Positions 121-34,272 of a DNA stretch of 64,000 bases are shown piece after piece. The stretch covers positions 6,882,001 to 6,946,000 of the forward strand of contig OU612072.1 in assembly GCA_914767715.1 (NCBI GenBank), in the 5' to 3' direction. The stretch's first letter is position 1. The number at the start of each line of letters is the position of its first letter. The notes under the pieces are model-generated. The model made no database searches. It had not been told where the DNA came from and saw nothing but the letters and a program-made list of their open reading frames with translations. The position numbers were made by a program, and so were the translations under genes. This DNA comes from Membranipora membranacea. Taxonomy: Eukaryota > Bryozoa > Gymnolaemata > Cheilostomatida > Membraniporidae.

Positions 121-871
121 TCATGGGATTCCTTGTCTGCCACCACCTGTAATTGAAATCAAACAACAATAGAGGAGTGTCCAACCATTGAGAGAATGTG
201 TGGATCACCATTATTACTGAACAAGGGATGGCGCAAGTCTTGTTAACTATGTTTTTAATAAAAGACAAATCTTGTTAAATTCCAAGTGTTTTATGCGAGC
301 AACTTCAGACCAATCAATATGATTAAAGGTTAAAAATTCAAACTCATAAACAAGGTGTCAAAAGAAAGTGGTATATGAACGCCAACTATTAAGCAGAGGA
401 TACTGTGGTACAAATTGACCTACTACCGTTCACCAATGTCTGAAAAAGGTGTATCTCTGAAATGCTTGTGTTTACTTCGTAAAGATTTGATGGCTAAATA
501 ATTTACTTACCGCTGCAGGGGCAAGGCGCTCTCACACAGTTGCAAGGTATGTCAAATGGTCCTAAAAATGCGGAAAAAAACAACTTCAATATTTCAAGAG
601 ACATTCAACATTTTATCTATCAACCACCTTTCACAAGAGATGACCTTAGCAATCACAAACAATGACATAATACATTTATTGTTTATGTTATGCATTCTCT
701 GACAATACATGTAGAGCGCAGACTCCTGCTAATTAAATATTATAGTGATAGATAATTTCACTCACCAGGTTGGCCAGAACTGCCAGGATTGCCAGGGCCG
801 CCATAATACCAAGCAGATGTTGGTGAGGCCAGAGCGCAAAGCACTAATACAGCAAGATAGAGAATATTCAT
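121..871 (-). CDS. A1: small secreted collagen-like, CxC-type peptide (3 exons, 60 aa)
   Basis: Exons 871-766, 561-511 and 146-121. All splice sites are GT-AG and both introns are phase 1. The start sits in an ACC-ATG context, about 60 bp below a TATA box. Residues 1-20 form a signal peptide (MNILYLAVLVLC..., ending ASPTSA). A short Gly-Pro stretch follows (GGPGNPGSSGQPG), then exon 2 with CNCVRAPCPC, and exon 3 gives GGGRQGIP-stop. An AATAAA lies downstream at 35-30. The predicted mature peptide is about 40 residues with four cysteines, likely two disulfides. I recognise no family. The arrangement is not the cnidarian minicollagen one, because the cysteine pattern differs. It is the most 3' of the minus-strand array and the best-preserved relative of pseudogene A2. 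Its function is unknown; an extracellular peptide is an inference from the signal peptide. Confidence 0.72.
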
Positions 872-2791
872 GGTGAGTTATCAGTCTCAGCTTCAACACA
901 AATCTGAACTCAGACTGATTAGACTTCCGAATTTATATCCATTAACAGCATGCAAGATGATTAATGACGCTTGTGCTATCTCATCTGTGAAATCAGTTGG
1001 CAATAGTCAGGTCAAGGAGTTCAAGACTTGACTCTATAACTCCTTGGTCTGATATTATTTGATTATTTATGTAATGACAGAGTCACTCCAGTTGGCTGAA
1101 ATTTGCTTATAATCATGGAATGAAACAGATAATTTGAAGCTATAGAGGTGGCCAGTGTTACATACATATAATAAATGTTCTACGCAAACACCATTTGTAT
1201 TTTGAGCTTGCTACTTACTAATACTGCAAAGTGGCTACAGCTTCTTATTGCAACTTAAGTGGACAAAAAACGCAGCCAAAGAGAACACTTTCAGAGCAGT
1301 AGTAAGACAAGCGTTCCAGATTGGAGAGGGCTCTGAATAAGACAATGAACAAATGCATACTGTAAGGATGATGAAGACCGGAGAGGGGGAAACATCTTTA
1401 TTGTCAAGTACATTCTCGACATACTGTTGCTAGTATAATTTTTGTTTTATGATATTTTGTGGCAGCTGTATGAACCACAAGACCTATTAATCAAGACTAC
1501 GATACCACATTGCCATTCTCAGCTAGTGCTTAACCACTCTGTTATCCATCAAGATGCATCCTGACACCAACATGGACGTGTGCCTTTCTTGCCGAAGTGT
1601 TGAAGTATAGTATCAAGCAGTGACTTATACTGAAGGTTTGCATCAATTTTACAACTTTTCAAGTAATGAATCGTTCAATATTTGGTGTTGGTATAATTTA
1701 GAGTGAGAAAATGACTAACTTCAATCAATATTTCAAAATTTATGGCTAGTTTCCCTAGTTTAAATATAGCAGACATCAGCACTTTTTATCATACCTTACT
1801 TTTTTAGGATCATGGGAGTAAGGACTTCAATCAGTGGGTATTTGGCTGGATAATAATGAGATGGCGTTGGAGAGAAGTATCAGCAACAAAGGGGTAAATA
1901 CATGGCTTGTGGTAACAAATCATGAGGGATAAACAATTACGACCCTTGATAATCTTCAATGACAGTTTAAGGTAATCTGTCGTTTGTATAAAGTGACCTA
2001 TGTATGGTCGGTTGATCTCATTTGGGACAATATAGGTATGAGAGGGAAGAGGAAATCCAAGTATCATCCATCATGGTTAAATATATATGCAAATCAACCG
2101 ATTTCTTTCAGGAAAAAGGAAAAGCGGCTCATGCTGCTTTTCTATTGTGCGAATCATGAGGATGTAGGATAAAGGAAGTGATAAATCACATATTGTCACA
2201 GCTGGTAGCTATACTCATTAAACACAAACGAAAATCCCTTTCGCTATACAAAACACAGGTTTAAATTCAAAACAAATCATAATAGAGCACATCGCTATTC
2301 TTATTTCTATGAAAGCTGAGCAAAAGTAATGATATCCATTAGGGCCATGGATCACTTTAAAGTATTTGGTTGAAGGGGAATGAAGAATAGGGTTGCCAAA
2401 TTTATTCTGTGTGGAAAGGAACCCGAACGCTCGAAAAACCGACAAATTTGACTACCTGTCAACCTGTTTCAAAGCAAGTCCAACAAGAGAAATGAATTGA
2501 TCGGAGTCATACCTCACAAGAAGGGGAGGAAAAATCTTATGCAACCATGAGCTGCTAATCAAATTGATAGTTCATTTTATTTATGAATGTACATTTTTCA
2601 CATGCAATTCTAGAAAATGCAATGAGTCTAAATGTGTGAACACAATATCATTGACCATAACAGATAGTGCTGGTTTGTTAGAAGTGTTTATAAACAAATT
2701 TCTTCATCATCAAGTTCATAGTAAAACTATAAAATCCTTGTCCCGCGCAGCAGACCTCCATGAAGGGATCTGATGGCATTATATGGATAGA
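872..2791. other. Upstream flank of A1, no gene seen
   Basis: Beyond the promoter I see no convincing exon. The stretch around 1840-2170 matches 8530-8940 in order and sequence, so it is duplicated array flank. The short open frames on both strands carry no recognisable motif and no signal peptide. Confidence 0.4.
931..937 (-). promoter_or_regulatory. TATA box of A1
   Basis: Reads TATAAAT followed by TCGG on the minus strand, about 60 bp upstream of the A1 start codon. The same TATAAATTC-type element recurs at the matching place before A3 and A4, and a TATAAAT variant precedes A5. Confidence 0.55.
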
Positions 2792-2808
2792 TCATAGAAT
2801 GACATATC
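2792..2808 (-). pseudogene. Orphan terminal micro-exon of the array family
   Basis: After the acceptor TTTTTTAG the minus strand reads a phase-1 remnant coding G-Y-V-I-L-stop, the position and form of the conserved last exon (G-x-x-I/V-I/V-S-stop) elsewhere in the array. The 3' flank (2720-2790) also matches the flanks at 9.5, 15.2 and 21.5 kb. I found no signal-peptide exon or cysteine exon upstream of it, so it looks like the remains of a lost copy. Confidence 0.4.
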
Positions 2809-5621: not shown

Positions 5622-6504
5622 CTATTACAAATATGGACGCTGGCATGGGATTCCTGCACTGCCGACGCCTGTCAGTGAAATAAAACAACAATAGAAAAGT
5701 GTACAACAATTGAGGGAATCTTTAGATCTCCATTATTACTGTACAAGGAATGGAGCAAGTTCCGATAACGATGTTTTCTATAAAGACGAGTCTAGTTAAC
5801 CTCCGAATGGCATATGTGACTTGAGAGAGATGTTATGATGAAAGAAGTTCAAACTCAGAAATAAGCCAAAATAATGTGACATTTGGAACCCAAATACTGT
5901 TGGGCACCACAAACAACAAATTACAAACATGCTATCAGACTTGGCCAGCAAATGATATTAGATGGTGGTGGTACAAATTGACCTACCACCGTCCACCAAT
6001 GACAACGATGCGTTACTCTAGGATGATTGTGTTTTTGTTCCATGAAGATTTGATGGCTATATTGTTTATTTGCCGTTGCAGGGGCAAGGCAGCCTCATAC
6101 AGATGCAAGTATGTTAAGTGATCCTAAAAATCAGAATAAAACAAAGCTTGCAAGACTTATATTGTCATGTAAACAAACAAATCTATTGCTATAGTTAATT
6201 ACAATTTTCCATTCCAAAGGAACATTCTTCATTTATCTAGCAACCATTTCTCACAAGAGCTGAACTTTGTTACCAAAAACGATGATGTGATATATTTAGA
6301 TTTATTGTATATATAATGTTTTCTCTGACAAAATGTTACAATGCATCTAGAGCACAGACTCCTGCTAACTAAATATCATAGATAAAGGGTAAAAAGGAAA
6401 ATTTACTCACCATAAGGGCCTGAGTTCCCAGGGCCGCCATGATACTAAGCAGATGCTGGTGCAACAGTGCGAAGCAATATGATAGAGAGATAGAGAATAT
6501 TCAT
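5622..6504 (-). pseudogene. A2: broken copy of A1
   Basis: All three exons of A1 can be recognised at 6504-6400, 6123-6074 and 5668 downwards, and flanking non-coding DNA also aligns with 1-960. It carries several lesions. The Trp codon just after the signal peptide is TAG (6447-6445). Exon 2 is 50 nt instead of 51, so the cysteine motif is out of frame. The exon 2 donor is GC followed by a poor context instead of GTAAGT. The terminal TGA is TGC, running on to a later TAA. The signal peptide itself (MNILYLSIILLRTVAPASA) remains open. A pseudogene is the simplest reading. A truncated secreted product cannot be excluded but would contain no mature peptide. Confidence 0.75.
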
Positions 6505-7586
6505 GGTTAGTTATCAGTCTCAGCTTTAACAACAACTTATGAAGGTTCTCTGCAGTACATCCCGCAGACTGTTGCTAACAAGTCGTTCTGTGATTTTTGG
6601 TGTCAATGGATCTTTTATAAGGCCAAACAGCTGCCTGAACCAACAAGACTACAAAACCCCATCACCATCCTCAGCCCATGTTACACAACTCTGTACACCA
6701 TGTACCAATAATTAGTGCTTGTATAATGTAGAGTTTAAAATGAATATATCAACATCTCGTAATATATGGCTTAGTTTCCTACTCACCAATAGCAGATATC
6801 ATCACTTCCTATCAGACCTGTTTTCATCCTTGTTTTAGGATGAGTGGATTCGGAAAGGAAGAAAAAGAATAAGAACATAGAAAAAATATTAATCATACAA
6901 CTGCTTTTCAGTCCCGAGAATTTCGAGAGTTTGGCTCAAGTTTTGGTCTTCGGGGGATGCCTTGACAAACAGTTAGTAGTAAAAATGAATTAGTAATTTT
7001 TAGTCAAGTGAAATGACAAACAAAGCCTGGGTGAGCGGGTATAAAGAAAGGTCAAACCTGATACTGACCAAAGGAGGAAAAGCCAGTGTGTCAGATCTGG
7101 TTTGAACACCCGTTCCAGCCCTAGGGGGTACAACCCGTCATTTTTACTTATATATACGTATCTGTATCGGCCATGGTTTCTCTTTTTTTTGTGAGGTTTG
7201 ATGAGGAAATTTATTTTCTACAAAGCCAAAACTTTGAGAACTCACTTATTATTGTGACAATGGACCAAATTATCATTATTCGGAAATCATAACTAAAATA
7301 AAGCAAATTTTTCTTACAAGATGATCTGCTGTCTTTCATGCCATCTTTGCAAACCTTTCTTGGGAAGCAATTTGAATGACCACTCCGTTTTCCAGATATC
7401 GAATATTATGATGTGAGTATTATGCCATTAAGTAAGAAACAGAAACCTGAAGATGGATGGATTTTATTACTATCACTGACAGCATTATTAAAAGAAAAAA
7501 TGAGTCGCGAAATACAGTGTAATTGCTGGCACTTTGAATCAGCAAGAAAAAGCGAAGACACTTGGAATAAAAAATCAAATCTCTGT
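6505..7586. other. A2 upstream flank, no gene seen
   Basis: Non-coding flank between A2 and a retrotransposon fragment. The small open frame at 7413-7607 has no signal peptide or domain and runs into the antisense end of the RT fragment. I see no supported exon here. Confidence 0.35.
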
Positions 7587-8309
7587 CTAAAAAAGTATTT
7601 CGTTTAAAATAAGAGTGATATGACGCAGAAAACAGTCTCTCCCCAGTGAGCTTCTATGTTTTACTGTACGGTATCTGCCAGATGGACATTTACTCAACAA
7701 ATCATTGATGAAATGATCCTCATCGTGAATATAGCGTAAGGCCAGTGTTCGTGTCTGATTGTCCATCATGGTATAAATATCGGGATGTTCAATGCCTAAC
7801 TTAATAGCGTCCTTGAAAATTTTACACAGGCGATGCTTGTCAGCAGCATACAAGCTTTTAAAAATAATGGGTAAGCAATAGGAGATTCGTGATACAATAA
7901 AACTTTTAAAAAGCATATTTGATAGTGATTTAGAGCTTAAAAATACAAAATTCCTGACTACATACATCCTTTGAGAGGCGGTTGAAACTATACCATGCAC
8001 ATGATCATTAAAACGCAGCTTATCGTCAACTAATACACCAAGATATTTAACTTTATCACTAAAAGAAATAGCAGTATCGTTTAAAACAAGTGTAGGGGTA
8101 GAAGGTTTAACATATTGGGTGGATAGCATCATTTCCTGGGTCTTAGTAGGGTTTAATAAAAGATTTAAATCAGCACATTGTTTAGCAATTCTATGGATTT
8201 CATCAAAATAGGAGTTGAGATCTGATTGATTAGCTATGCAGCCTATGATGCAAGTGTCATCTGCGTACTTAATTATTGTAACGCGGTACACAAGGTAAGA
8301 GGGACACAA
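7587..8309 (-). mobile_element. 5'-truncated non-LTR retrotransposon, RT C-terminal part
   Basis: An open frame of 240 codons encodes the second half of a reverse transcriptase. The catalytic YADD box (IKYADDTCIIG) is near residue 14. It is followed by NPTKTQEM and YLGVLVDDKL, the usual palm/thumb motifs of CR1/jockey-like non-LTR elements, and a thumb region with SRISYCLPI. The fingers, the first palm motifs and the endonuclease are missing, which is typical of 5' truncation during target-primed insertion. The frame is still free of stops, so insertion may be fairly recent. The exact clade cannot be settled by eye. Confidence 0.85.
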
Positions 8310-9547: not shown

Positions 9548-10179
9548 TTATGATACGACGACATTTCCTACAAATTTGAAAAAAAGGGAGAAATATTGAG
9601 TTATGTAACACATGATGATGATTTATGAGAGATTGTGACCGGGTGTTTTGTTGATGCCTAGCTAGTCGGTACCATTTGATACATTCGATACAAAACTGGA
9701 CCTGCTATACAATAACATGATCTACCTTGAATCGAGTAGAAGAAGAATATGGAATAAGCAAGTCATTGACATCTATAGCTGAAATCAACGTAAGACTGAG
9801 CCAAGGCAGTATGTAGTTATCGGCCTTGTCATTCCCATATACAACTAAAACTGTCCAATTCTGAAAAACTAATTTGGATTTATTTGTTGAAACTGAGACA
9901 CCAAATGAACTGGTCACTTGTTCATGGTTGACACCGCGCCACACTTGGTCAGCCAAAAAACTGAAAATCCTGTTTAGTAGGGAACACTGATCATTCGAAT
10001 ATCAAATTGGTAGACTAACAATCAAATTACTCACCTAAGCCTTTTTTGCCGGGAAATCCAGGGCTGCCAGAACTGCCAGGATAACCAGGGCTGCCAGAAC
10101 TACCAGGTTGGTCATGAACAGCAACTGCTATTGAGGCGAAAGCACAGAGCAAGATTACAGCAAGAAATAGAACCTTCAT
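9548..10179 (-). CDS. A3: secreted collagen-like peptide, cysteine exon missing (54 aa)
   Basis: Exon 1 (10179-10035) encodes a signal peptide (MKVLFLAVILLCAFASIAVA), then HDQ and a Gly-Pro run built on G-S-S-G-S-P-G-[YF]-P, ending KKGL. Its donor is GTGAGT in phase 1. The terminal micro-exon (9567-9548) has a good acceptor and encodes G-N-V-V-V-S-stop in the matching phase. I searched the 467-nt intron for a cysteine exon and found none. The simplest model is a two-exon, cysteine-free peptide. A missed or distant exon is the alternative. A TATA box lies 60 bp upstream of the start. Confidence 0.58.
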
Positions 10180-10238
10180 GATGAGCAGTCAGTTTGTTGG
10201 TATAACATCAATATGAGCCCTGATTGACGGACAGCTGA

Positions 10239-10245
10239 ATTTATA
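10239..10245 (-). promoter_or_regulatory. TATA box of A3
   Basis: TATAAATTC on the minus strand, about 60 bp upstream of the A3 start, at the same place as in A1. Confidence 0.55.
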
Positions 10246-10249
10246 CTGA

Positions 10250-11957: not shown

Positions 11958-12968
11958 TTATTGGGCCCATGGTTTTGGTTCTTGGTCTCCTGGTTTACCG
12001 CCATCTAAAAAGAAATATCAAACCCCAATGCTATGGCACGTACAAAAATGGATGCAATGAGACCTTTATGTCGCCATTAACATTGTACCAATGAGCACTT
12101 GTTTTCTACAGCTATATAATCATTAATACTGCAACATCAAAAAATAAATCCTAAGTGGCAAGTTGTCAGCAGCATGTACCCATAGAGTAGGTGTCATGAG
12201 CACGGGGCATTTGAGCCCACACTACAGGGTACCCATCACCTGACATTGTACTCAAAAAGGAAGACTTGATTGGGCTAATCAACCTAAGACACTCTTCCTC
12301 ATTACTATTTTATGCCGTTGTTATGTTATTCAGTTTACTTACCGCCACAGTCACAAGGTTCTGTCACACAAAAACAACCACCAGAACCTCCTTGAGGACT
12401 TCCCTCAGCCGCTTAATTAAGAAAAAAGAAATGAGCAACTGTTCTATGAATAAATATTAATACAATTGCTGTAGATAATGATTAGATTCACATGGCAAAG
12501 GCACATAACAGTATGTACAATTCTTAGCCACATTCCGCAAGAGATTAGTTTTCAATAAAATCATGAATTACTTATTGAATATTAATAAAGATATATGTAT
12601 TTCTATTTTGTATTTTTATATAAAGATATGTTTTAGTGTGTTATGCATTCTTTATTTATACATAGCCTACTCATCGAAGAGCCAAGTTGTTTCAAACTTC
12701 AATTAAAGTGAGGAACCGTTAAAAGTATGATGGTTTAGAAAGCAATATTAAAAATACTGCCCATTTATATTCGCCAAATATTCATGGTGCCTGCAAAAAA
12801 AACGCAAATAGAATAGCGTGATGAGCGAGGACAACACACAATATTGCTATCAAAGTGGTATTGAACCAAATAATTCTACTAACCGGGAGAGCCAGGAGCG
12901 CCAGAGCTGCCAGCAGATGCTGTGCATGCAACACAGAGCAATAATACAGCGAAAAATAGCACCTTCAT
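11958..12968 (-). CDS. A4: small secreted CxC-type peptide (3 exons, 66 aa)
   Basis: Exons 12968-12884, 12411-12343 and 12004-11958, GT-AG, both introns phase 1. Exon 1 gives the signal peptide MKVLFFAVLLLCVACTASA and a short GSSGAPGSP stretch. Exon 2 gives a Gly-rich linker and CFCVTEPCDC, the same C-x-C-V-x3-C-x-C pattern as A1. Exon 3 differs from the usual micro-exon: 47 nt encoding DGGKPGDQEPKPWAQ-stop, rich in Pro and charged residues. The total length is divisible by three only with these junctions. Family and function are unknown; an extracellular location is inferred from the signal peptide. A TATA box lies about 51 bp above the start. Confidence 0.7.
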
Positions 12969-13575: not shown

Positions 13576-13689
13576 TTACATAAAGTTCTCACTGCCAGGA
13601 CTCACAGAACTACCAGGGGGGTCATGAACAGCAGATGCTATTGAGGCGAAAGCGCAAAGCAAGAACACAGCAAGAAATAGAACCTTCAT
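13576..13689 (-). CDS. A6: intronless, probably decaying copy of A3 (37 codons)
   Basis: Signal peptide MKVLFLAVFLLCAFASIASA nearly identical to A3, followed by HDPPGSSVSPGSENFM-stop. Where A3 continues its Gly-Pro repeat, this copy has GTGAGT in place of GGCAGC and soon meets TAA. No exon 2 or terminal micro-exon of its own lies between it and A4. The promoter element has changed from TATAAATTC to TTTAAATTC. It could make a 37-residue secreted peptide, or use the new GTGAGT as a donor, but a pseudogene is at least as likely. Confidence 0.42.
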   Translation of the reverse strand: MKVLFLAVFLLCAFASIASAVHDPPGSSVSPGSENFM

Positions 13690-15246
13690 GTTGAGCAGTC
13701 AGTCTGATACAAACAGAATACAAACTTTGGTTTATTGACAGCTGAATTTAAACCTGGTAGCAGAACTGCAAGTCAGCTCATGACATTTATATATCCTCTC
13801 ACATAAGAAATTGTTTCCATGGCGATTAGTTGATGTTACCAAGATCGTATGTACTGTAAAAGTGGGGGGGGGGGGGGGTGCCAAGGACTCATATAACAAA
13901 CACAGTATAGAGAATCAAACTTCCCTACTTCCTTATAAATGGTTGACGCCATATTTTTATGAGGATAATGTGTATAAGAGCAGGATACTGGTTTCCTTCT
14001 GTCCAGGATCATATCATTGTGTGTGGTTAAAGTCACATAATTATTTTTTATTATCAAATCACGTGACTCTGAAATGTGTTAAATTCACATCACAACTTTT
14101 ATCCATGTACCCACTAGTTGTGCACAAACCAATGTTATCTCTCGTCAAATCATTCATAAAAACATGGTTGGTTATCATTGGTCATTATACCGCACAAAAT
14201 TGCTAGTAAAGCAGCTTCATTTGGAATAATGGCCAGACAAAGTTCACAGTGTTGTCAAGCAGATTTCAACAGTAATAAACTATCTGACACAGTCTTGCAC
14301 AATATGTGAATGAGCTGAGGATAATGATATGCTGACATAACTTTCTCACAAATAAAATAAAAAATACTGATTTTGTTTCAAAACTTGCAAAATCAGAATG
14401 AGAGCGTAAATATCAATGTGTGACCGAGTCTATTTATAGTTGTGAAACAGTGGAAAAGGGCCGCATTAAACCAATTACATCACCTGTATATAGTTATCTT
14501 TTAGTGGAACTAATTTATCGATGCATGGAAAACAAGCTCTTTTACGGTGACTGAAGACTCCAGTAATGCACAAAAAAGTGAATGTGCCAGATATTTGACT
14601 AGATTCTACTGACAAACTTATGACCATGGATAAGGGCCTCACCACTGTAGTAACAATACCAGCATTACATTAGGCAAGTAAAGCTACTCATACTAATTTT
14701 GCCCAATGTGAACCATCCATTAAACCAAGAGGACAGCAGTAACATTTTTTACTGAACTTGATTTTTCTATAGCAAGGGCTTCATATGGGTGTGAACCTTG
14801 GCCATGCTGCGTTAATCAATGAAGATATGATATATATATATAATTTCATCAGTTCAAGATGTATTTCAGCCGATGCAGAGTCATAGTTGTACGACCTATT
14901 ATACCATAGTCAACATACGATGTGCAATCACTATCTTACATATAGGATACCCGTGTCTTTTTTTGCTATGTCTGTGAACTATCCCATTATACCCAGTGAG
15001 GTGGAGAGTCGGTGAGGGAAATTGGGCGCTTATAAATATACACTCATATTCATTTGATTTGCAATGTATTGGATTATTTGACAGAAATTATGATAAACGG
15101 TGTTTGGCGAGCATTACCAGTGTTTAATGTAGGGATTGTTTATTAGGTCATTCTTCATTATAGATTACATTGATAGTATAACTATAGAATCCTTGACCTG
15201 CACAGCAGACATTGATTAAGGGATCTGGTGGCATTGCTCTTTGATG
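13690..15246. other. A6 upstream flank, no gene seen
   Basis: Aligns with the A3 upstream flank. A 15-nt G run lies at 13864-13878. The open frame 13811-14206 on the plus strand spans this run and has no domain or signal peptide; I regard it as chance. Confidence 0.35.
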
Positions 15247-16366
15247 TTATGATACGATTGTCCCTCCTACAAAATTGAGATAAAAGGAAATTTGAGACAA
15301 ATAACACATATTGGTGATTAATTCAAACACTCAAACAACCTATGAGTCGGCATTGCACCGACCATGATTCATTAATTGCATTAACCCAATCAAAGATTCA
15401 AACTGTCAAAATCAGTTTAATCGGTCAATTTGATAGATTAACTCATTAGGATATTATTTTCAACTAGTAATACCATAAAAACATCCACATTTCACCTGAT
15501 TAATTAATTTCAGACCACGATTTTTACAAGTTCTGCGATGTATTTTGCAATTCATGGATTAAAATTTCAATCGGTTAACTCGGGACTATGCAGTATCCAA
15601 TGAGCACACATTTCCCTGATTGATATCAGTAGTTTAGGTACAGGAAATAATATACTAACCATTGCCGCCACAGCCGCAGTTGCCTGTTACACATGAACAC
15701 AATATATCTAGAAGCATAAAGGAGAATCTAAGATAAACTTTGCATCGAAGCTTGAATCAACATAAGATTTAGGATGTTTTAGCCATGATAAAACCTGTCA
15801 AACCACCTCATTATTTCACATCGTAAGACTGCCAGGTCCATGTTGAGAAATAGACTTTGGTTTCTCTTTAGCACACTAAGCATAGGAATTGAAAGCCAAA
15901 TACTCTTGAAAAACTGCTTTAGATAGGATGAACATTCTTTGTGATTCAGAATCTATAGCATTGAAAACATGTCCGGACTGGGATCAATACTGGTTCTAGT
16001 CCTATACATCACAAGTGGAATACAGCCTGATCCATAACACTGCCAAAAGCACTTATTGGTCAACTTTGGTTACTTCACAAAACTAATTTCAACCCATCTG
16101 TTGAAACAAAAGACACTGAATAACATTGGCGCTTGTTATAATCGATACCATTGACTGAGCTTGTGAAGAACTGACTATTAATATCATAATGGTACCGCAC
16201 CGAAACATTTTTACTTACCAGGAATTCCGACACCGCCTCCAGTGCCAGGACTGCCGGGAAAACCAGGGCTGCCAGAACTGCCCGGACTGCCAGGGCTTGC
16301 ATACAAAGCAGATCCTGTTGAAACGAACGAAACAAGCAAGAATACGACAAGAAAAAGAATCTTCAT
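15247..16366 (-). CDS. A5: secreted collagen-like plus CxC-type peptide (3 exons, 71 aa)
   Basis: Exons 16366-16219, 15707-15660 and 15266-15247, GT-AG, phase 1 throughout. Exon 1 has a signal peptide (MKILFLVVFLLVSFVSTGSA) and the longest clean collagen-like run, with repeated G-S-P-G and G-S-S-G triplets ending GGGVGIP. Exon 2 gives DILCSCVTGNCGCGGN. Exon 3 gives GGTIVS-stop. This gene is the link in the family: its front resembles A3, its cysteine exon resembles A1, and its last exon is the same as in B1 and B2. It is the A/B partner of C1. The mature product is about 50 residues with four cysteines. Function unknown. Confidence 0.75.
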
Positions 16367-21506: not shown

Positions 21507-22315
21507 TTATGATATAATTGTGCCTCCTACAAAGTGAGAGAGGAAAAATTTGACACACAAGATAAGAAAGTGGGACTGGCTGTGTTTAGATAATACTAGA
21601 TGACATTATTTTGATTTCAATTTGAGTTTGAATAAGATTTGAACACAAATGGCTATAACCTGTTGGCGTGTCTTTCGGCCACACGACAGCGACAATAATG
21701 ACAAATGACCCCCATATTAATCGGGGTTTTGACCATTCCAATTAACTGACTTTATTCAATAATTAATTGATTATAAATTCCTCATCAGCATTGTATCATG
21801 TATTGTAGTATATAGCAGATGCCTTTAGCTTACCATAATCCTCACAGTCGCTGAGATCATCTGCACACAGACTCACAATATCTGAAAGTTAAAAAGATAA
21901 AATCTGAGATAAGCACAGCCTTGAAATAAACATTATAATGAAGATAAATTAACGGAGTTTCAAGCGATGCAGGTTCATGAGAGATACCAAGGGTCCCCTG
22001 GCTATAATTTGGGTCTGTACTACAATGACATTATAATCTAAAAAAATTTATAATCATCTTCCGAGCCACTACTGATTGATCATTGGCTGCTCAGTCTACG
22101 TTTAGCAAACAGACAAGAAGGAAACATAACCTGCCTGAAAACAAGATATTCAAGCTATGATTAGCATGCAGATGAAACAAAAATAATCTCATCATACTTC
22201 ATGAATACTCTCTCTTTTAAACAACCATGCCAAAAGTATTTAGATACTTACTTTGAGCAAATGAAGATGAGACCAAAGCTCCAATAAGGGCTACAGTCAC
22301 TAGACGTATCCTCAT
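21507..22315 (-). CDS. B1: two-cysteine secreted micro-peptide (3 exons, 43 aa)
   Basis: Exons 22315-22252, 21881-21834 and 21526-21507, GT-AG, phase 1. Exon 1 is exactly a 21-residue signal peptide with its flank (MRIRLVTVALIGALVSSSFAQ). Exon 2 encodes NIVSLCADDLSDCEDY. Exon 3 encodes GGTIIS-stop. Cleavage before Gln would leave an acidic peptide of about 23 residues with one possible disulfide and an N-terminal Gln able to cyclise. There are no dibasic processing sites. The spacing C-x6-C equals the spacing between the first and third cysteines in A1, A4 and A5. No known family recognised. Paired with C2 in a duplicated unit. Confidence 0.72.
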
Positions 22316-24112: not shown

Positions 24113-25419
24113 TTATGACACTGGGTTAATACAAACATAAACATTGGGTCTTATGCTGCAGCATTTCTCATCCCCTGGGCAGTTGAAGTCGTGTCCTGCG
24201 CAGGTTGAACTGGATATAGATAGCCTCAGTGCCGGACAATTCCCAGGTTTAGCAGAGCCTGTGGGATCTGAAAAACATCCCGTCTGCGTCAGTTAGCTTG
24301 TTTGGACTGGCTGACACTTCAGGGTACATATGGCACTGGAATAGCAGGAGACTGATGGAAAAAGTTTTACGAGGTGTAATTAATTTCAAATGTCCTAGAT
24401 CAGTGAATATTTACCGGAGGCTTGGGTAAGCGCCCAGTTCAGTTAGAGAAATTGGGTGCATGCTAACAACAAGTCACCTCAAACCTAATTCAACCTTAGC
24501 CTCTATTTTATATTCAGGTCTGTGTGTGTATGGTAGTTGATTCCTGTGAATTTTACAAAAATACTTCTTGGCTTTCCTTACCAGCCCAAAAATTATATCA
24601 TAGATTGAATCTGATAATAACAAAAATACCAATTCCGGCTTAATCAACATGTCGTTCTGCAGATGGCTAAAATCAATTAATACCCCTGTAAACTGCATCT
24701 AGTAGAAAGTGATCTGGCAATGAAGACACAGCCTATGAATAGTATAAAACTGTTTATGTGCTCTTAAATACTCACTACATGGAGGGCATGTTGAGTAGCA
24801 ACCATCTTCACCTCTTTCGAATCCGGCTAAGCAGAATTTCTTACAGAGAGGCTGCTTGAGACAAGGCTCTGCTTCTATGGTTATCAGCGGCTCATAAAGG
24901 ATATGGAAGCGCTCAAAGTCACCTAAAACCATAGACATCGATAAATAGATGTCTACTCGGTTTTTGCGGTTTTCGTTATAACTGGTTGACCGCCATCAGT
25001 GGTAGGGATTTATAGCTTGTCATGTTATGTTTTTCAGCTAGCCCATTAAGTTCATTCTAAATCATTCTTGATCGAATCCCTACCACTGATTTCTTATATA
25101 CAGGAGATTCACGAAAAATGGAGCGACTCCTAAGAGTGGCTTAGGTTTCTATTGGGCTCTATATCTATGCCTAAAACAGTGCAGCATTGGTTATAGGAAC
25201 CTCATAGATATTTGCCTAAAAGAAACTCTGGTATCTGGTCTCTCGTAAGTTCACAACAAACAGTCTGTTGTTTTAATGATTGCGGAATTGTCTAGACAGA
25301 CTGTCAACAAATGATTATATGAGTTGTTTAGTATTGATTGGAAACACATACTGACCTTGACCAAGAGAAGATGGTAGAAAAGCACCTACAAGGGCTAAAG
25401 TTACCAGGAGCCACCTCAT
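24113..25419 (-). CDS. C2: secreted antistasin-like plus WAP-type protease inhibitor (3 exons, 121 aa)
   Basis: Exons 25419-25356, 24922-24776 and 24267-24113, GT-AG, phase 1. Residues 1-21 are a signal peptide (MRWLLVTLALVGAFLPSSLG-Q). Residues 22-70 hold an antistasin-like module (C-x5-C-x3-C-x9-C-x3-C-x2-C, with GFERGEDGC in the middle). Residues 71-121 hold a WAP-type module with CPAL, CPGDEKCC and a final CINPV. Families of this kind inhibit extracellular serine proteases, so a secreted inhibitor is likely; targets are unknown. The WAP module has six of the usual eight cysteines: the second and seventh, which normally pair, are both absent. The antistasin end is GC-x3-C-x2-C instead of GC-x2-C-x-C. 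It is the only intact member of the three C copies. Confidence 0.8.
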
Positions 25420-26069: not shown

Positions 26070-26956
26070 TTATGATACAATGACGCCACCTAAAAATTGA
26101 AGAGAGGAGAAAACTGAAACAATTAACACACGATGGTGATATGTGAAAGTGCGACCGTGTGTGTTTTGATAATACTAGTAGACATTTTTTGGTCTTGATT
26201 TGAGATTGAATACAATTTGCTGACAAATGGCTCTGAACTTTGGTGTCTTTTGGGCCCCACATGACAGTGGCAAAGGTGCCTGCAATTCAAGATCGCTTAA
26301 TAATTACAAATCACCCCCATATTAATGGGGGGTTTTGACCATTCCAATTAACTGACTTTATCCAATAATTAATTGATTATAAATTCCTCATCAGCATTGT
26401 ATTATGTATTGTAGTATATAGCAGATGCCTTTAGCTTACCATAATCCTCACAGCCGCTGAGACCATCTGCACACAGACTCACGAAACCTAGAACCAAGTT
26501 TGAAAGATCAAATCTAAGATATAGCACTGCATCGAAATAAACATTATAATGAAGATAAATTTATGAAGATGTTAAGTAAAGTTTCAATCGAGGCATAATC
26601 ATGGGAGATACCTAAGGTCCACAGGCTATAGTTTTGGCCAGTATTAAAATAACCTTTATCTAACACTGTAATCCGAACAAACTGAATTAATCAACTACTC
26701 GAGTCACTGCTGATTGATCATTGGCTGCTCGGTCTATGTTGAGCAAACAGACAAGAAGGCAACACATTTCATGTCTGCAAACAAGATATTCCAGTTACGA
26801 TTAAAGCTGCAGACTAAACAAAAATAATCTGATCGTACTTCAAGAATACTGTTATTTTTAAACAACCATGCCAAAAGTATTTAGACTCTTACTTTGAGCA
26901 AGTGAATATGAGACTAAAGCTCCGATAAGGGCTACAGTCACTAGACATATCCTCAT
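26070..26956 (-). CDS. B2: two-cysteine secreted micro-peptide (3 exons, 43 aa)
   Basis: Exons 26956-26893, 26487-26440 and 26089-26070, GT-AG, phase 1. Signal peptide MRICLVTVALIGALVSYSLA, then Gln. Exon 2 gives SFVSLCADGLSGCEDY and exon 3 GGVIVS-stop. It is the closest relative of B1. The introns are also highly similar, for example 21715-21850 against 26320-26455, so the duplication is recent. Two acidic residues of B1 (DD and SD) are glycines here, while both cysteines, the Tyr and the C-terminus are kept. Function unknown. Confidence 0.72.
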
Positions 26957-28439
26957 TGTCGTGGTGATAAGGCTAAAATCAGTTAGCAGTAAATTGAAAT
27001 CGCATGAACTGCAAGAAACAAAGCAGTTTGACCCTTAGTATGCAGCAACTATCTTGTTATGGCTTGACGATGAAGCACCAATGGTCTCACAAACATATCA
27101 CCAGAGCAATTAGAAAATTTTGTTTTTGTTGTTGTTTCTCAGGCGGTGTTATCTTCATCAAAATGAATGTCAACGTGTCACTTAGATATAAAGATTATGT
27201 GATTTCATCACTTGATATAAACTGGTCATTATTCTATACTATTCTTGTCATGACACTTCTATATTTTGGAAGGCTTGACATGCAGTGTCAATATCTACAA
27301 GCCTGATAGATAAGATGATTAACTGATATTCTAAAGAGGTGATCTTTTTCCCTTGCTCCTATGATGAGCCAATAGACAGAGGACAAGGACCCAGTTTACC
27401 ACCAACTTGAAAACTATTACCAACATTTCCTTCTTCTTGAGGTGTGCGTATCAGTTTGAACCAGCTAGTGTTATCCCAGATGAGGTTGAAACAGGAAATA
27501 GATTTCCTTTCCAATCTGTCCAGATTCATACCATTGTGGGTGGTTAAAATCACACACTGATATCATGTATCATCACTCACACCACTTTCTTAGATCCAGC
27601 TGGCATAACAGATACCTGAGTTTTATATGGGACCATTGGTGAAACCAGCTTTCTATTCGCCATATTGACCATTACCATGCAAAAAAGGAAGCTGATGGAG
27701 GCTACTTGCTCCACATTTTTGTTGGCATCTCTGAGAACAGGTGGTAAATTTATTGCTGCACGTTGAATTGTTACCCCTAGTCCTACCTCTATCAGTGCAA
27801 TGTATCTGATCTCTTCACCAAGATAGATTCTTATGTCGCCCAAAGCTTTGATTGACTTGTGTAGCAAGAGGAATACTAAACCTTCCATTTACTAGAGCCT
27901 TATATTTGATACCACTATTTACAGGGGCTATACTTGAAGTAATGCTGACCTGTTGCCTTATATACCTGTTATGGTGCACAGGGGTATGCCATATGTACTG
28001 TCCAACACAAATGCTGCGGAAAATTAATGTTATATCCTGATTCAATAGCAGCAGGCAATTGAATTCCTCTTCGGTCCAGGATCAACGCTTGATAACATGA
28101 GGGGGTTTTTGTGTTCCTTCATCACATAATGCTTTTAAGCCAACACCTGTTAGCCAGTGGCAGCCACAAACCAAAGATGATTGATTTGTCTTGCTTACTA
28201 ACTGCCTGTGGCTCCGGATGGTTCTGGACTGACAAGGACAAGGAAATCAGACTCAGTTACAATGATCAAAAGCTCATAAAAATCTATAGTCGGAGAAAGG
28301 AAGAGTAGGTTTTGCTATTGCATCACTGTGTGAATCAGAAGGTAGATAATATTTGGCAGGATGCATTTTCTTTTGCTCCATAGTTGAACATAATGAGAAA
28401 ATAGTAATTTTTAAAACCATGCAATCACATCAATGTATG
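26957..28439. other. B2-C3 spacer, no gene seen
   Basis: Duplicate of the B1-C2 spacer. The minus-strand frame 27577-27888 is open by chance as far as I can tell: no signal peptide, no domain, and the paralogous segment at 23.0-23.2 kb is deleted. Confidence 0.4.
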
Positions 28440-28612
28440 GTCCCGATACCCTGTGATACCGTGTGAGAAACCTTGCTATTTCTTGTTTTGTTTTTTTCCG
28501 GTCTCAGTACCGATCTACAGGCTGGATCCTGACACCACCGGAAATCGATCATGGGACATCTTGATTGAAAGACCCATGCCTTACCCATCGCACTACGGCC
28601 GCTCCATGAAAG
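28440..28612 (-). mobile_element. tRNA-derived SINE copy (C3 3' flank)
   Basis: Same element and orientation as at 23.6-23.84 kb with an internal deletion in the body. The head GCCGTAGTGCGATGGG and the tail TTTCTCACACGGTATCACAG are kept. Paralogous position, hence one ancestral insertion. Confidence 0.72.
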
Positions 28613-29479
28613 ACAGTAACTTGAACAGACCAGACCCTTGGCAATCAAAATCAAATAAATATTGAAAATAAAGTGATATTCATGGCAAACCAGAGACTGG
28701 AATTGACCAAAATAGTGCAATTGGCCATTTTCATGATCGGGAATCTGTTGGTATGCACTGGCTTACCAACTAATCTGTAGGATGCATGAGCAATAGGACA
28801 GTCAAATAAGAGTTTGTTTAAAATGGAACAGAATTAGATGCAATTGCCTTTTCATTATGCTTTATTCAAATACAAAGGATTATGACACCGGGTCAATACA
28901 AACATAAACTCTTTTTTCTTATCACTTTATTGTTATCAACATCATCTTGAAAAGATGTTTTACATGATCTTGAAAAGATGAAAAGATGTTTTACATCAGG
29001 CCTAATGCTGCAGCATTTTTCACCCCCTGGGCAGTTGGAGTCGCGTCCTCAGCAGGTCGAACTGGATGTAGACAGCCTCAGTGTAGGACTATTTCCAGGT
29101 TAAGCAGAGCCTGTGGGATCTGAAAAACATTCAATGAGCGTCACTGAGCTTGTTTGGATTGACTGACACTACACTCTATATATGGCACTGGAAAAGCAAG
29201 AGACTGATGGAAAAGTTTTACGAGTGTAATTAGTTTCAAATATCCTAGATGAGTAAATATTCACCAAAGAACAGTAGGTTGTTGCAACATGGCTCGGTAA
29301 GTGTCCAGTTCAGTTAGAGAAATTTGATGCATGCTAACAACAAGTCACCTCTAACCTTAATCAACCTTAGCCCTCTATTTTATATTCAGGGTTGTATGGT
29401 AGTTGATTCCTGTGAGTTTCATAAAAATACTTTGTGGCTTTCCTTACCAGCACAAAAAACTATATGTGGCATGCTCTGT

Positions 29480-29887
29480 CTAATTCGTCAATAATGAGGG
29501 GAAGGAATATTTTGAGTTATTGTAACCACTTGATAGAGAATTTTCTACAGATTCCAAATATATCTTTATTTTATTCCTAGCACAGCAATTGGTCTTTTTA
29601 AAGCCGAAATAGTGCACCGGATTCACGGCGCGGCATGAAACAGCATTTTGAACAATGGCCGCCCAAAGTTCACGATCACGGCAAAATTTGATGCAGTTTT
29701 GCGTACGTATTGTACTTCCTAGCAACGGAGGTGTAATTCTACGACAGATATCTAAAAAACATGTTTCTAGAACAAAAAACCATGCTGATTTGAATGGTGA
29801 TATTCTTTTATTGGTCAGACTGCTTGAAAAAATGTTAGCAAATGTCAAACTTTCAATTTCTTGAGGTGTATACCAAGCACCATTCAC
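29480..29887 (-). CDS. Uncharacterised transposon frame near the left TIR
   Basis: A 135-codon open frame inside the TIR transposon, downstream of the GHTKF gene. Contains DRELWAAIVQNAVSCRA, which resembles DRDTLWVAALQYAVDRRA in the frame at 53.15 kb. Whether it is a separate protein, a last exon or a remnant cannot be told. The antisense plus-strand frame 29655-29864 is a shadow. Confidence 0.35.
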   Translation of the reverse strand: MNGAWYTPQEIESLTFANIFSSSLTNKRISPFKSAWFFVLETCFLDICRRITPPLLGSTIRTQNCIKFCRDRELWAAIVQNAVSCRAVNPVHYFGFKKTNCCARNKIKIYLESVENSLSSGYNNSKYSFPSLLTN

Positions 29888-29956
29888 TTCAACAGTTGCA
29901 TTGTCATTTTCTTGATAATCTGTTATTATAGTCTGATTTAATCCATTATTCCACTG

Positions 29957-31505
29957 TTATTTTGGTCTAGCTTTCTTAGTAGCAGGCTGTGTATCCTCTG
30001 GTGGTTCTGGGCACACTAGGTCTCTAGTGCCTGGTGTACAAAACTCCCGTATCTCTTTAAACAGATACTTTCTGCGGGCTTCATCTAGACCTGATGGTAC
30101 GATCTCTTTAGGATGACCTGTTGGACGTTGATGGAGAACAGTGTCTGTTCTCCCTGTCTTCTCTTTGCAAAAGAGCCTGGATATCACTTTACCTGTAATA
30201 AAAGAATTGAATCCCAATGTGATAACATAAGTAGGCTCCACAATCAATACAGTCAACAGAAAACTTACAACTTTTGTTATGCCTATCATAGTCTATTGGC
30301 TTCTTCAGTATCCCACACAGTCCCACAATTGCCTACCTTGCATACTTTGAGAGAATGAGAACTGCTGTCTCTCTTTGATTCCTTGGATCCTCACACCATT
30401 GCTGAAAAACCCACTCCAATCATACTGGGTCACAATAACCTTCCCATCCTGGTCACCCACTAGCTGCGCCTTGTTCTTCTCGCCATAGCAGGACTCCCTG
30501 ACAACCTGTTTCAATAAACAATAGGCACAATTATTTGCATTATTCTGTATCCCAGATCACCAATGACAATATTAACTATGTTATCCTGCAAATACAACAC
30601 TAATGTGATTATTGTTGTAATCTAGTATAGTACCTTAGCTATATCATCCAAACAGGACACCATCGTTTGTCGAAACTTCTTTTTGAAGATACCAAACATC
30701 TGGTCGCACATAAATTTTGTGTGACCAGCTATCAGGAAGTTCAGCTCTATCTCTGTATTATGCTTCGTCATCACCCTCCTCGGGTATTATTCCTAGCACA
30801 CAAAGGAGTTAGTTCACAGCTAATTTGATCTGATAAAGAAACATGAAACAGTTTTTGTAACTAACCTTCATGTGCGTAATCACAGCGTGTACACTTTCTC
30901 TCCCGCTCTTTGTGCTTGTGAGTTTTGCCGTGTGTGGCACTCGTGTTTATCACAACAGACACTTTACTCAAGATCATTACATCTCTCTCTGATGTAGTAA
31001 GGCTTTCATAGAAGACCATCTGATCCAGCAGACTGGAGATGTCAAAATTAGTGAGGCAGTTTGTAGCACATTTGCATCGGAAAGTTGACAGCACATTCTG
31101 CCTTTTAGAGATGGTCTCATCTCCAGTGTCACCTGAAGGACTTGAAGGTCCATCCCCACTGGATGTTGGAATAGATTGTTGGGTAGGCCTGGTAGGCTTC
31201 TTTTTGGTAACCAACACCCTTGAATCACTACTTTTATCCCCCTGCTTTGTTTTAGTTTTGCCTTTTTGAGTTTGACTTGTGCTAGGCTTATCAGCTTCTA
31301 TTTTCACTAAAACATCTTCATCCAGCTGTTCTATACCTTCTGGGTGGCCTAACTGTTCATGTTCCTCATCACTATCTATATCTCTGCTCGCAATATCAAA
31401 GAATTCAGCATCTACTTGACTCAGAAGTTCATTCAAATCAACTAATCTTCCAGTGTCAGCCATCTTTGTGTCCTTCCGGTGTGCCCTTAGTAACCACTTT
31501 GACAC
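29957..31505 (-). pseudogene. Internally deleted transposon gene with GHTKF motif
   Basis: Exon 1 (31505-30866; start at 31505 or at MADTGRL) has an acidic, Ser-rich N-terminus and then CKCATNCL and HGKTHKHK, a Cys/His-containing region. A segment at 30792-30634 has FLIAGHTKFMCDQMFGIFKK, the hallmark GHT-x-F-x3-D-x2-F motif of a transposase-like family common in sponges and cnidarians (DUF7869-type, from memory). Exon 30505-30337 has VTQYDWSGFF. The last exon 30192-29957 has RKYLFKEIREFC. The core expected between HGK and GHT is absent, and the frame into GHTKF meets a stop at the only acceptor I see. So this is an internally deleted copy, unlikely to make an active enzyme. Confidence 0.62.
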
Positions 31506-32272
31506 CTGATTGGACCACTTAACTTGCTAGTAGCCAATTAAAAATGTGATATTCTGAATCAGAAGATGTTGATTGGTCAGAATCAAGCAAAATATAAAAA
31601 TGTAAACATTGTTCATAAAATCACATGCCCAGCTTTAGATGCTTATTACTAACAATAGTCAATGCCGCGTTATTGACAAATTAGACAGAGCATGCCACAT
31701 ATCATACATTGAATCCATTAATAACAAAAGTATCAATTCTGACTTGGTCAACATATCGTTTTATATATCGCAAAAACCAATTGATACTCCTCTAAACTGC
31801 ATCTAGGAGGTGATCTGTCAAAGCAGACATTGCCTATGAGCAATACAAAACTGATTTCGTGCTCTGAAATACTCACTACAAGGAGGACAGGTTGAGTAGC
31901 AACCATCTTCACCTCTATCAAATCCGGCTAAGCAGAATTTCTTACAGAGAGGCTGCTTGAGACAAGGCTCAGTTTCTATATGGTTATCAGCGGCTCATAG
32001 AGGATATAGCGCTCAAAGTCATCTAAGAGTCCTGCATTGGTTATACGAACCTTATAGATGTTTGGATAGAAAGAAGCTCTGGTATCTCATAAGTTCACAA
32101 CAAACAGTCTGCTTTTTTAATGATTGTGGAAAAATCTAGACAGAGTTTCAATAAATGATTTTATGATTAGCTTGGTGTTGGTCGGAAACACATAGTGTAG
32201 ACACTGACCTTGACCGAGACAAAACAATAGAAAAGCACCTACAAGGGCTACAGTCGCTAGGAGCATCCTCAT

Positions 32273-33514
32273 GGTCGGTGTTCAGTTAGAATCAGTCAGA
32301 AATAATTGATAGCACCAAAACCAGCGTTGTATAGAGCAAGTCAATCCAACACAATGTTGTTGAGGCTAATCAATGACGCAATTGATGATTGACACAACAT
32401 ATCACCATAGAGATGTGAGGATTTTACATGGTTGAAACCAATTGCAAAGAAGTTTCCTTCAATCATATACTCATTCATCATTGGTAAATATGTGTTAGTG
32501 TTCAAGTTGCCATATTTCAAGATGTTGCTTTCTATTTTGGAATATGGTGTGGGATACCGTGAATAGGCACAAACTAAACATTACGAAACTTTGCATGGCA
32601 CACGAACAATTAGTGTGCGAAACGTTTCAACAAACAAAAATTGAACTCTTTATAAGACATTTGACTATTGGAACCTGATACTCGGGATCGACTTGTACAT
32701 GCAGCATATTGCTTGCTGTAATCTGTAATTTCCTCCTAGCAATTGAAATCATTTATTTGTATTATAAGAGTGAGTTCTCACCCAAACATCTACTCCCGCA
32801 ATACAAATACTGCACTCAAAACACTGAACATGTTTCAGGATTGTTATGAGGGTACGGGGAAAACCTCAAAGAATTTAAGTTAGAAACTTTATACTTTGCA
32901 CAATGCAAAACGATTTTTGAATGAAATTGGCTAGTAGTTTTTACTTTTTTACTGAGTTTTCTTTCTCTTTCTTGGTAACAAAGTTTGAAAACTACATTGC
33001 TTGGAGGCAGAACCTGCCATAGCAGCTGATCTTTACAAAAAAAATTATCAACACTGACGTTGGTAGGATGTAGCTCTCAATATATTTAGCTTGTCATCAA
33101 CAACCATAACTTTGCGTCTTGGCAGGCTGTCTTCTGGCAATTTCCTGATTGCTGCAACACCCTGATTTATTTTTCCTGAGCAGTGGACAATTAAAACATT
33201 CCAGCTGTATTTATTACTAGTTGCTCGCAATATCCCAAATTATAGATTCAGTGAGGTAAACAATTGATATCGGTACCAGAAACTACTTAACATGCGGGCG
33301 TGGACACTTATAAATGGCAACTTGAATTTGCATTTATTCAATGTCATCATGTACCTTATAGTATGCAAAACATTGGTTGTAAGCATTCCACTAGTTATTG
33401 CCTGTTAAAATCATTTATTAACTCAAATTGGTCATCATTATGTTATCAGTAATAACTATATTATAGTCCCATAAAACAATCCGTGATGAAGATATCAGTT
33501 AGCTTTCTTCAATG
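32273..33514. other. C3 upstream and B3 3' flank, no gene seen
   Basis: Aligns with the upstream flanks of C1 and C2 to about 32700. The remaining sequence shows no supported exon. Confidence 0.35.
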
Positions 33515-34272
33515 TTATGATACGATGAGACTTCCTACAAAATGGAAAAAAGAAAAATAAGACGAATACAAGGCTATGGTGATACAGGTGTGGCTTAGTG
33601 TGTATGTTGGCCGGTTGGTAAAAATTGGGATATGATTGTGGTTTGATTTCAATTTAACCACGTAAGTCCTTTATCTGTGTTCAACGTTTTCTTGTGCTGA
33701 GCTACAGTAAAATTACTTACCCAAATCACTACAGCCCCCACTGCCGTCTGATATACAAATCCTTGCGATACCTAGAAGCAAGTAAAAAAGAATATCTAAG
33801 ATAAGCTTTGCACTGAAATAAACATCATAATGAAGATATAAAGAGCGGCCTTGGTGCAATGGGTTAGGCACGGGTCTTTCAATCAAGAGGTCTCGTGTTC
33901 GACTCCCAGCGGATCATGGTGGTGTCAGGAAGAGCACCCGACCTCAAATGCTCCTGTGCCTCATCCGGATCCAAACCGTAGACTCGTACTGATACCAGAA
34001 ACAATGAAGATTTACAGACATTGAAATGAAGTTTGCAGCAAGGTATAGGATTTTGAGAGATGGCCAGAGTCCCCAGGCTTTTGCTATGCTTTATAACTTG
34101 ACTACCTGGGGTTGCATCCCGTTGAAGTTAACTTTGCATGCTCTGTGAGCTTACACATGGGATGGTGTTTACAGACCAGCTCTATTCGACCTATCTAAAT
34201 GTACTTACCTTGAGCAACAGAATATGATACTAAAGCTCCGATAAGGGCTGCTGTGACAAGAATAAACCTCAT
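33515..34272 (-). CDS. B3: two-cysteine secreted micro-peptide (3 exons, 44 aa)
   Basis: Exons 34272-34209, 33771-33721 and 33534-33515, GT-AG, phase 1. Signal peptide MRFILVTAALIGALVSYSVA, then Gln. Exon 2 gives GIARICISDGSGGCSDL, with C-x7-C, one residue longer than in B1 and B2. Exon 3 gives GSLIVS-stop. A TATAAAT lies on the minus strand about 60 bp above the start (around 34330). A SINE sits in intron 1. This is the most diverged B gene and the upstream end of the array. There is no C gene beyond it. Confidence 0.68.
33841..34002 (+). mobile_element. tRNA-derived SINE in intron 1 of B3, with target duplication
   Basis: The tRNA-like head has an A box TGGTGCAATGGG (33852-33863) and a B box TGTTCGACTCC (33896-33906), followed by the family body GTGTCAGGAAGAGCACCCGA. 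It is flanked by AATGAAGATATA (33829-33840) and AATGAAGATTTA (34003-34014). The same intron in B1 and B2 has a single AATGAAGATAAA, the empty site. This copy ends at CCAGAAAC and lacks the tail found in the other three. Confidence 0.85.

Follow-up and report, generated by a model that had tools for sequence, protein, structure and literature searches.

Secreted cysteine micropeptide genes and antistasin-WAP genes in one cluster on chromosome 8 of the bryozoan Membranipora membranacea

Peptide genes of the window and the array around them

We analysed a 64-kb stretch of chromosome 8 (C8) of the cheilostome bryozoan Membranipora membranacea, referred to below as the window, which carries a series of genes for very short secreted peptides. 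Six of these genes, A1, A4, A5, B22, B26 and B34, can be modelled with a signal exon, a short cysteine exon and a terminal exon, joined at GT-AG junctions that all lie in phase 1 and ending at exact stops; their products have 60, 66, 71, 43, 43 and 44 residues, respectively. An initial annotation of the window had described six intact models (A1, A4, A5 and B1 to B3) with GT-AG sites, closed frames and products of 43-71 residues. It gave no exon coordinates, and that its six are our rebuilt six, which span the same 43-71 residues, is our own assumption. Window coordinates below equal the C8 position minus 6,882,000, negative values lying left of the window. In the same assembly the opening 10 kb of contig C18, translated with code 5, look like an animal mitochondrial genome in which COX1 and further genes can be discerned by eye. 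The exons of the six genes and of three incomplete loci among them are as follows.

766..871, minus strand: A1 exon 1, signal peptide and Gly/Pro/Ser-rich stretch; TATAAA 66 nt before the ATG
511..561, minus: A1 exon 2, CxCx4CxC exon, CNCVRAPCPC
121..146, minus: A1 terminal exon, followed by AATAAA within 100 nt
6448..6537, minus: A2 signal exon with broken frame, a decayed copy of A1; remnant of the cysteine exon at 6111-6066
10035..10179, minus: A3 signal exon with Gly/Pro/Ser repeat; no cysteine exon found
9548..9567, minus: A3 terminal exon, B-type
12884..12968, minus: A4 exon 1, signal; TATAAA at -57
12343..12411, minus: A4 exon 2, CxCx4CxC exon, CFCVTEPCDC
11958..12004, minus: A4 terminal exon, 47 nt
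13630..13752, minus: A4b, copy of signal exon and leader, ATG at 13689; no cysteine exon found
16219..16366, minus: A5 exon 1, A-type signal with Gly/Pro/Ser repeat
15660..15707, minus: A5 exon 2, CxCx4CxC exon, CSCVTGNCGC
15247..15266, minus: A5 terminal exon, B-type, GTIVS-stop
22252..22315, minus: B22 exon 1, signal
21834..21881, minus: B22 exon 2, two cysteines, C-x6-C
21507..21526, minus: B22 terminal exon
26893..26956, minus: B26 exon 1, signal
26440..26487, minus: B26 exon 2, two cysteines, C-x6-C
26070..26089, minus: B26 terminal exon
34209..34272, minus: B34 exon 1, signal, marking the right-hand limit of the array, with TATAAA at -63
33721..33771, minus: B34 exon 2, two cysteines, C-x7-C
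33515..33534, minus: B34 terminal exon

For A5, a model with a 24-nt exon 2 was dropped in favour of the 48-nt exon, which yields the full motif and 71 residues.

The window portion is the right end of a larger array. Signal exons were sought with iterated A and B signal-exon profiles over 304 kb, comprising the window, 140 kb of left flank and 100 kb of right flank; because such profiles take in their own hits, the final E-values are not independent. Where the initial annotation had seen 34 kb on the minus strand only, the array extends over about 137 kb on both strands, from -102.9 kb to 34.3 kb, and holds 38 signal exons, with none past either end within the 304 kb. Twenty-six of them lie left of the window (25 found by the B profile, the remaining one by the A profile). 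The other 12 are inside it, between 871 and 34272 and all on the minus strand, six fitting the A profile best and six the B profile; an extra B-profile hit at 20227 belongs to the 19.7-kb locus (W19), from which it has become detached. Iterated profiles of the last exon and of the cysteine exon gave 27 and 21 hits, respectively, all confined to the array region. Tandem duplication gave rise to the array paralogues, as seen in the self-comparison of the window, and this, along with the gene models, agrees with the earlier description of a tandem array of secreted micropeptide genes built of symmetric phase-1 exons. The accompanying statement that about twelve minus-strand loci share one plan stands as to the twelve signal exons but not as to the plan, which is followed by six of the 12; three others are antistasin-WAP genes (19.7, 25.4 and 32.3 kb), one is broken (6.5 kb), and at 10.18 kb (A3) and 13.69 kb (A4b) a cysteine exon was sought and not found.

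An intact frame with a phase-1 donor is present in 29 of the 38 signal exons (eight of the 37 listed have none, and W19 is the 38th). Three-exon phase-1 peptide genes can be closed from 19 of the 29; the other ten comprise four multi-domain genes (F92, F102, F87 and W25) and six unresolved or broken loci (g-68, g-61, g-17, A3, A4b and W32), among which exon 2 of g-61 and a convincing last exon of g-68 were sought without success. The segments from -53.3 to -48.6 kb and from -46.1 to -40.5 kb form a recent segmental duplication that holds g-52/g-49 and their copy, the copied g-52 signal exon carrying a stop. A last-exon profile hit at window 2823-2751 (minus strand) has no intact signal exon assigned to it, and a lone WAP-like terminal exon lies outside the array at -110247 to -110063 (plus strand), with no same-strand signal-exon hit nearby.

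The 19 peptides fall into two classes. Twelve carry C-x-C-x4-C-x-C, and in their alignment, for which A1, A4 and A5 were trimmed to the last 32-35 residues, the four cysteines are the sole invariant columns at a mean identity of 29%. The other seven carry C-x6-C (C-x7-C in B34), g-14 having a further cysteine upstream; both outer cysteines are missing together in six of these seven, as nested pairing predicts. If signal cleavage is placed after residue 19-20, which is our own placing, the predicted mature peptides would have 17-27 residues in the 16 B-lineage cases and 40-51 in A1, A4 and A5. B22 and B34 share 77% identity in the signal exon, 53% in the introns and 58% in exon 2; that is, the signal is conserved and the cysteine exon is hardly more alike than the introns. 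An alignment of the 19 precursors, searched against 5.8 billion proteins of which the animal share is not known, gave 1704 candidates and none with E ≤ 1. Neither an antistasin (PF02822) nor a WAP (PF00095) domain was detected in the seven micropeptides scanned (A1, A5, B22, B34, g-64, g-41 and g-34), and an Rfam search returned 0 matches.

Because exon lengths in the 19 peptide genes range from only 5 to 148 nt and the weakest models have poor sites (donor GTTTTG in g-80, a last exon of 5 nt in g-49), one might suppose that a reader seeking small exons had picked chance frames. We consider this very improbable in view of the controls. The search for a phase-1 cysteine exon covered the 1.2 kb that follow the signal donor; this criterion was fixed only once the motif was known. 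The CxCx4CxC exon was present behind 13 of the 29 intact signal exons, whereas it was absent from all 29 antisense stretches, all 290 shuffles and all 290 stretches drawn at random from the right flank, in line with the earlier contention that such closure is unlikely by chance; the corresponding figures for the C-x6/7-C exon were 8 of 29, 0 of 29, 3 of 290 and 1 of 290. A six-frame count of the bare CxCx4CxC motif gives 23 in the 137-kb array, compared with a single one each in 130 kb of right flank and 29 kb of left flank; 20 of the 23 fall in hits of the last-exon or cysteine-exon profiles, another is exon 2 of g-80, and the remaining two have no assignment.

As to promoter signals, TATAAA stands 75-50 nt before the ATG in eight of the 29 intact signal exons (chance 0.018 each, binomial 4e-8). 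By lineage, it is present in seven of the eight of the A/F group and in one of the 21 of the B/W group, so that nearly all B promoters are without TATAAA. In each of the six intact window models the stop is followed within 250 nt by a polyadenylation hexamer, with none for A3 and W25; it is weak evidence, because AATAAA is expected in 16% of 150-nt stretches.

Antistasin-WAP genes within the cluster

Antistasin-WAP genes occupy three of the 12 window loci, W25 being intact and W19 and W32 decayed. The Pfam gathering cut-offs that apply here are 21.2 bits for antistasin (PF02822) and 20.8 bits for WAP (PF00095).

25356..25419, minus strand: W25 exon 1, B-type signal, donor GTCAGT
24776..24922, minus: W25 exon 2, antistasin-like, 14.5-14.9 bits in Pfam, under 21.2
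24113..24267, minus: W25 terminal exon, WAP domain, 26.3 bits
18147..19505, minus: W19, decayed; antistasin-like exon 19505-19359 (GC donor), WAP exon 18301-18147
28883..32295, minus: W32, decayed; signal (ATG 32272), frame-shifted antistasin-like exon at about 32020-31878, WAP exon 29120-28883

The product of W25 has 121 residues, with phase 1 throughout. Since W25 also closes with a 20-nt last exon (76 residues), the three W loci were considered as micropeptide genes as well; we prefer the antistasin-WAP reading because a downstream WAP exon follows in the same order in all three copies, because this exon is in phase 1, has no start of its own and is under purifying selection between W25 and W19, and because that of W25 scores above the Pfam cut-off. 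Substitution counts between W25 and W19 (dN 0.03 and dS 0.28 in the antistasin-like exon, dN 0.06 and dS 0.27 in the WAP exon) show purifying selection on the W exons. The antistasin-like exon of W25 is 54% identical to a stretch of the F92 antistasin exons (E 2e-12, tblastn). In the stretches of W25 examined neither TATAAA nor an A[A/T]TAAA hexamer was seen; the search of W25 against the 5.8 billion proteins gave one candidate and no match, and that against PDB gave weak matches only, including elafin at E 0.4-0.5. The signal exon of W19 is split by about 450 nt (20227-20190 and 19736-19682), hence has no intact start, and the WAP exon of W32 is interrupted by stops and an insertion. Between exon 2 and the WAP exon W32 also holds some 2.2 kb (window 29460-31700) that W19 and W25 do not have, with frames of 221, 158 and 111 amino acids, one of which gives a weak, sub-cut-off WSC match.

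The fullest gene of this kind is F92, on the minus strand at the left end of the array (-92.2 to -97.6 kb), with seven exons, all in phase 1, and a product of 238 residues. Its exons are, in order, the signal exon, IPPKCVCVRAPCDCD (a CxCx4CxC exon), three antistasin exons, a WAP exon and a terminal WAP exon; Pfam finds antistasin (34.0 bits) and WAP (31.1 bits) in two stretches each, both above cut-off. Three of 144 candidates in a protein search match F92, all with an antistasin domain, led by a protein from a gastropod (E 4e-10), this antistasin-family match spanning 19% of the query, and none of the three relatives, viewed by eye, has a CxCx4CxC module. Among solved structures the two top matches of F92 are the WAP domains of anosmin-1 (E 0.006) and nawaprin (E 0.025), as expected for WAP; these are different proteins overall and bear on the parent gene only. 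In F102, antistasin scores 34.7 bits over two stretches, above 21.2. We predict the products of F92 and W25 to be protease inhibitors, and further F92-type genes may exist elsewhere in the genome, beyond the 304 kb.

Descent and possible use of the peptides

The peptide genes and the inhibitor genes meet in their second exon. In a tblastn search over the 304 kb, exon 2 of A1 matches exon 2 of F92 at 9 of 12 residues (E 7e-4), and the CxC-type exon of F87 matches over 8 residues (E 0.009); judged by this similarity, exon 2 of F92 is the micropeptide exon. The initial annotation knew of no named family with this design, which holds for the peptides in so far as they have no relative at E ≤ 1, but not for the cluster, given that their cysteine exon recurs in F92 and that antistasin/WAP genes stand among them. 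In a tree of the 29 intact signal exons with 40 nt of leader, A and F are split from B and W at 98/97 and W25 and W32 fall among the B rows, a grouping by which multi-domain genes and micropeptide genes occur in each lineage; stars mark 6 of the 26 inner branches, those of the A group (82/72) and the F group (84/65) not among them. A5 and A3 pair an A-type signal exon with a B-type last exon, the self-matches running from 15170-15299 to 21431-21557 (72%) for A5 and from 9514-9584 to 33484-33551 (79%) for A3. These matches indicate that the last exon is common to both lineages, and they fit the earlier suggestion of module exchange with A5 as a mix of A and B parts.

On these grounds the micropeptides are probably best read as the cut-short and multiplied 5' ends of an antistasin/WAP gene, provided with a last exon of their own. 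The simplest scenario supposes an ancestral modular gene for a secreted inhibitor, with symmetric phase-1 exons for signal, CxCx4CxC, antistasin and WAP. Such a gene might have been cut down to its 5' module one or more times in each lineage, the truncated copies ending in a short final exon, frequently x-(I/V)-(I/V)-S-stop and partly common to copies; the A lineage would in addition have inserted a Gly/Pro/Ser spacer. The result would be a birth-and-death cluster in which duplication, loss and recent segment copying are still going on. In this scenario a taxonomically restricted peptide arsenal arose by domain shedding from a protease-inhibitor gene, A from an F-type and B from a W-type gene, with the last exon passed between the lineages. 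We hold it tentatively, at somewhat less than an even chance.

Signal peptidase would then free the peptide directly, at 17-27 residues in the B lineage and 40-51 in the A lineage. The cysteine spacing equals that of the protegrins, which suggests a hairpin with two nested disulfides, outer C1-C4 and inner C2-C3; class 2 would keep one of the two disulfides. Loop and tail residues differ between copies. The most likely use, in our view, is a varied extracellular defence set, antimicrobial or anti-fouling and deterrent, with protease inhibition ranked next. That the peptides are secreted defence effectors and also descended as proposed above strikes us as an evenly balanced proposition.

Two known peptide systems help to place this proposal. 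Protegrin disulfides join Cys6-Cys15 and Cys8-Cys13, that is C-x-C-x4-C-x-C, in Arg-rich peptides of 16-18 residues (PMC9100274). The likeness is one of spacing, shared by all 12 class-1 peptides; the bryozoan peptides are mostly neutral or acidic and come from another type of gene. The Drosophila Bomanins of the 55C cluster are, according to PMC4411088, clustered, taxon-restricted secreted peptides, some with 16-17 mature residues, that exist in short and tailed forms and carry a conserved 16-residue CXXC motif. Compared by layout and not by sequence, they share with the bryozoan genes the clustering, the restriction to a lineage and the very short secreted product; they differ in that class 1 has CxCx4CxC spacing instead of CXXC and in that the bryozoan genes have phase-1 exons in common with inhibitor genes. 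Our survey of the literature for bryozoan antistasin, WAP, antimicrobial, cysteine-rich or secreted peptides met, by title and start of abstract among the papers listed, none on such genes, and one for antistasin together with WAP and phase-1 exons met nothing; most subscription papers lie outside the coverage of both.

The genes nearest in kind are the antistasin/WAP inhibitors of the cluster itself: F92 has both domains and W25 has WAP, and the peptide genes have related signal exons and the same phase-1 plan, whereas the micropeptide genes consist of no more than the signal exon, one CxCx4CxC or C-x6/7-C exon and a short terminal exon. With such a parent, the peptides might be miniature protease inhibitors whose inner cysteines enclose a standard-mechanism reactive loop kept from the parent, the copies differing in their targets. 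A Pro precedes the third cysteine in seven of the 12 class-1 peptides (VRAP, VTSP twice, ITDP twice, TTNP and VTEP; also MIGP in g-68), and the variable mid-loop positions would suit altered specificity. However, the CxCx4CxC exon is separate from the antistasin/WAP exons and upstream of them, and hence does not provide their reactive site; in addition, the loop is short and five of the 12 class-1 peptides have no Pro there. We regard this alternative as unlikely.

The Gly/Pro/Ser repeats of the A-lineage products raise another possibility, that of structural or adhesive secretions in which cysteine- and Gly/Pro-rich peptides are cross-linked into cuticle, larval shell glue or skeleton matrix. 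An earlier 63-residue model of A5 gave a weak Pfam collagen match (17.5 bits, cut-off 27.2), the 71-residue model giving none at E ≤ 1, and the words antistasin and WAP domain occur in work on the shell matrix of limpets and on adhesion in limpets and sea stars. Sixteen of the 19 closed models, those of the B lineage, are free of repeats at 17-27 residues, which makes a structural role distinctly unlikely to us.

Selection on the micropeptides was estimated as dN/dS in seven pairs, in three of which the mature part was comparable. Between g-71 and g-16 the mature part has 9 changes at 13.2 synonymous sites and 5 at 40.8 nonsynonymous sites (approximate Fisher p 2e-4, with the counts truncated), and it is clearly constrained.

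Several points weigh against descent from an inhibitor gene followed by use in defence. The polarity, with the inhibitor first and the peptide second, was chosen by parsimony, and we infer it. F102 as modelled has a signal exon, two antistasin exons and a WAP-like exon, with no CxC exon; F87 has a signal exon, an exon 2 that reads C-x2-C-x4-C-x-C and a WAP-like exon; the WAP-like exons of F102 (16.5 bits) and F87 (18.9 bits) score under the 20.8-bit cut-off; and the antistasin-like frame of W19 has no Pfam match at E ≤ 1. The class-2 loop is x6 or x7, not x4, and its cysteines are only presumed homologous with C2 and C3. TATAAA precedes just four of the 19 peptide genes (A1, A4, A5 and B34). 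Predicted net charge runs from -5 to +1 and is at most 0 in 18 of the 19 peptides, unlike that of classical membrane-active hairpin antimicrobials. The signal part of g-71/g-16 has 0 synonymous and 4 nonsynonymous changes, and in the other two comparable pairs, B22/B26 (dN 0.15, dS 0.24) and g-64/g-34 (dN 0.43, dS 0.49), the mature part is not clearly constrained.

This last result, from two of three comparable pairs, is also what one would expect if the short genes were pseudogene debris of antistasin/WAP genes, decaying without a product, and the eight of 37 listed signal exons that lack an intact frame, the startless W19 and the frameshift and stops of W32 point the same way. Against such decay, 19 short genes close exactly in frame, the four cysteines are kept in 12 of 12 class-1 peptides while the rest varies, and the mature part of g-71/g-16 bears signs of purifying selection; we judge the decay explanation improbable.

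The origin of small secreted peptide families is often hard to trace, as little but the signal peptide survives. If descent by domain shedding is correct, the presumed parent type (F92), possible intermediates (W25 and F87), finished micropeptides and decayed copies lie together in one cluster, a layout in which the steps from a modular inhibitor to a disulfide hairpin of 17-27 residues would be directly testable. The cluster would then be a natural experiment in the making of new micropeptide families from phase-1 modular inhibitor genes, and would provide a peptide effector family in Bryozoa.

Neighbouring features of the window

A Pfam scan of 10 window frames gave only weak sub-cut-off matches, all in one frame, a kinesin-associated domain being the best. 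This frame, at 46937-47380 (minus strand), resembles the end of a kinesin motor domain (Kinesin_assoc 16.0 bits, cut-off 29.5) and probably represents an exon of a kinesin gene of the host that lies right of the array.

Two frames lie between array genes, at 7587-8315 (minus) and 18557-18907 (plus). The first gives a reverse-transcriptase fragment match (RVT_1, 22.9 bits, sub-cut-off) and the second looks retroelement-like by eye, with no Pfam match. A dispersed repeat occurs in both orientations at 23597-23832, 28426-28607, 33843-34003 and 61416-61653; it looks like a tRNA promoter by eye and was read as a short interspersed element (SINE). To the right of the array are direct duplications, 68-77% identical and with no function that could be assigned, pairing 36727-38240 with 59885-62022 and 39220-39657 with 63536-63979.

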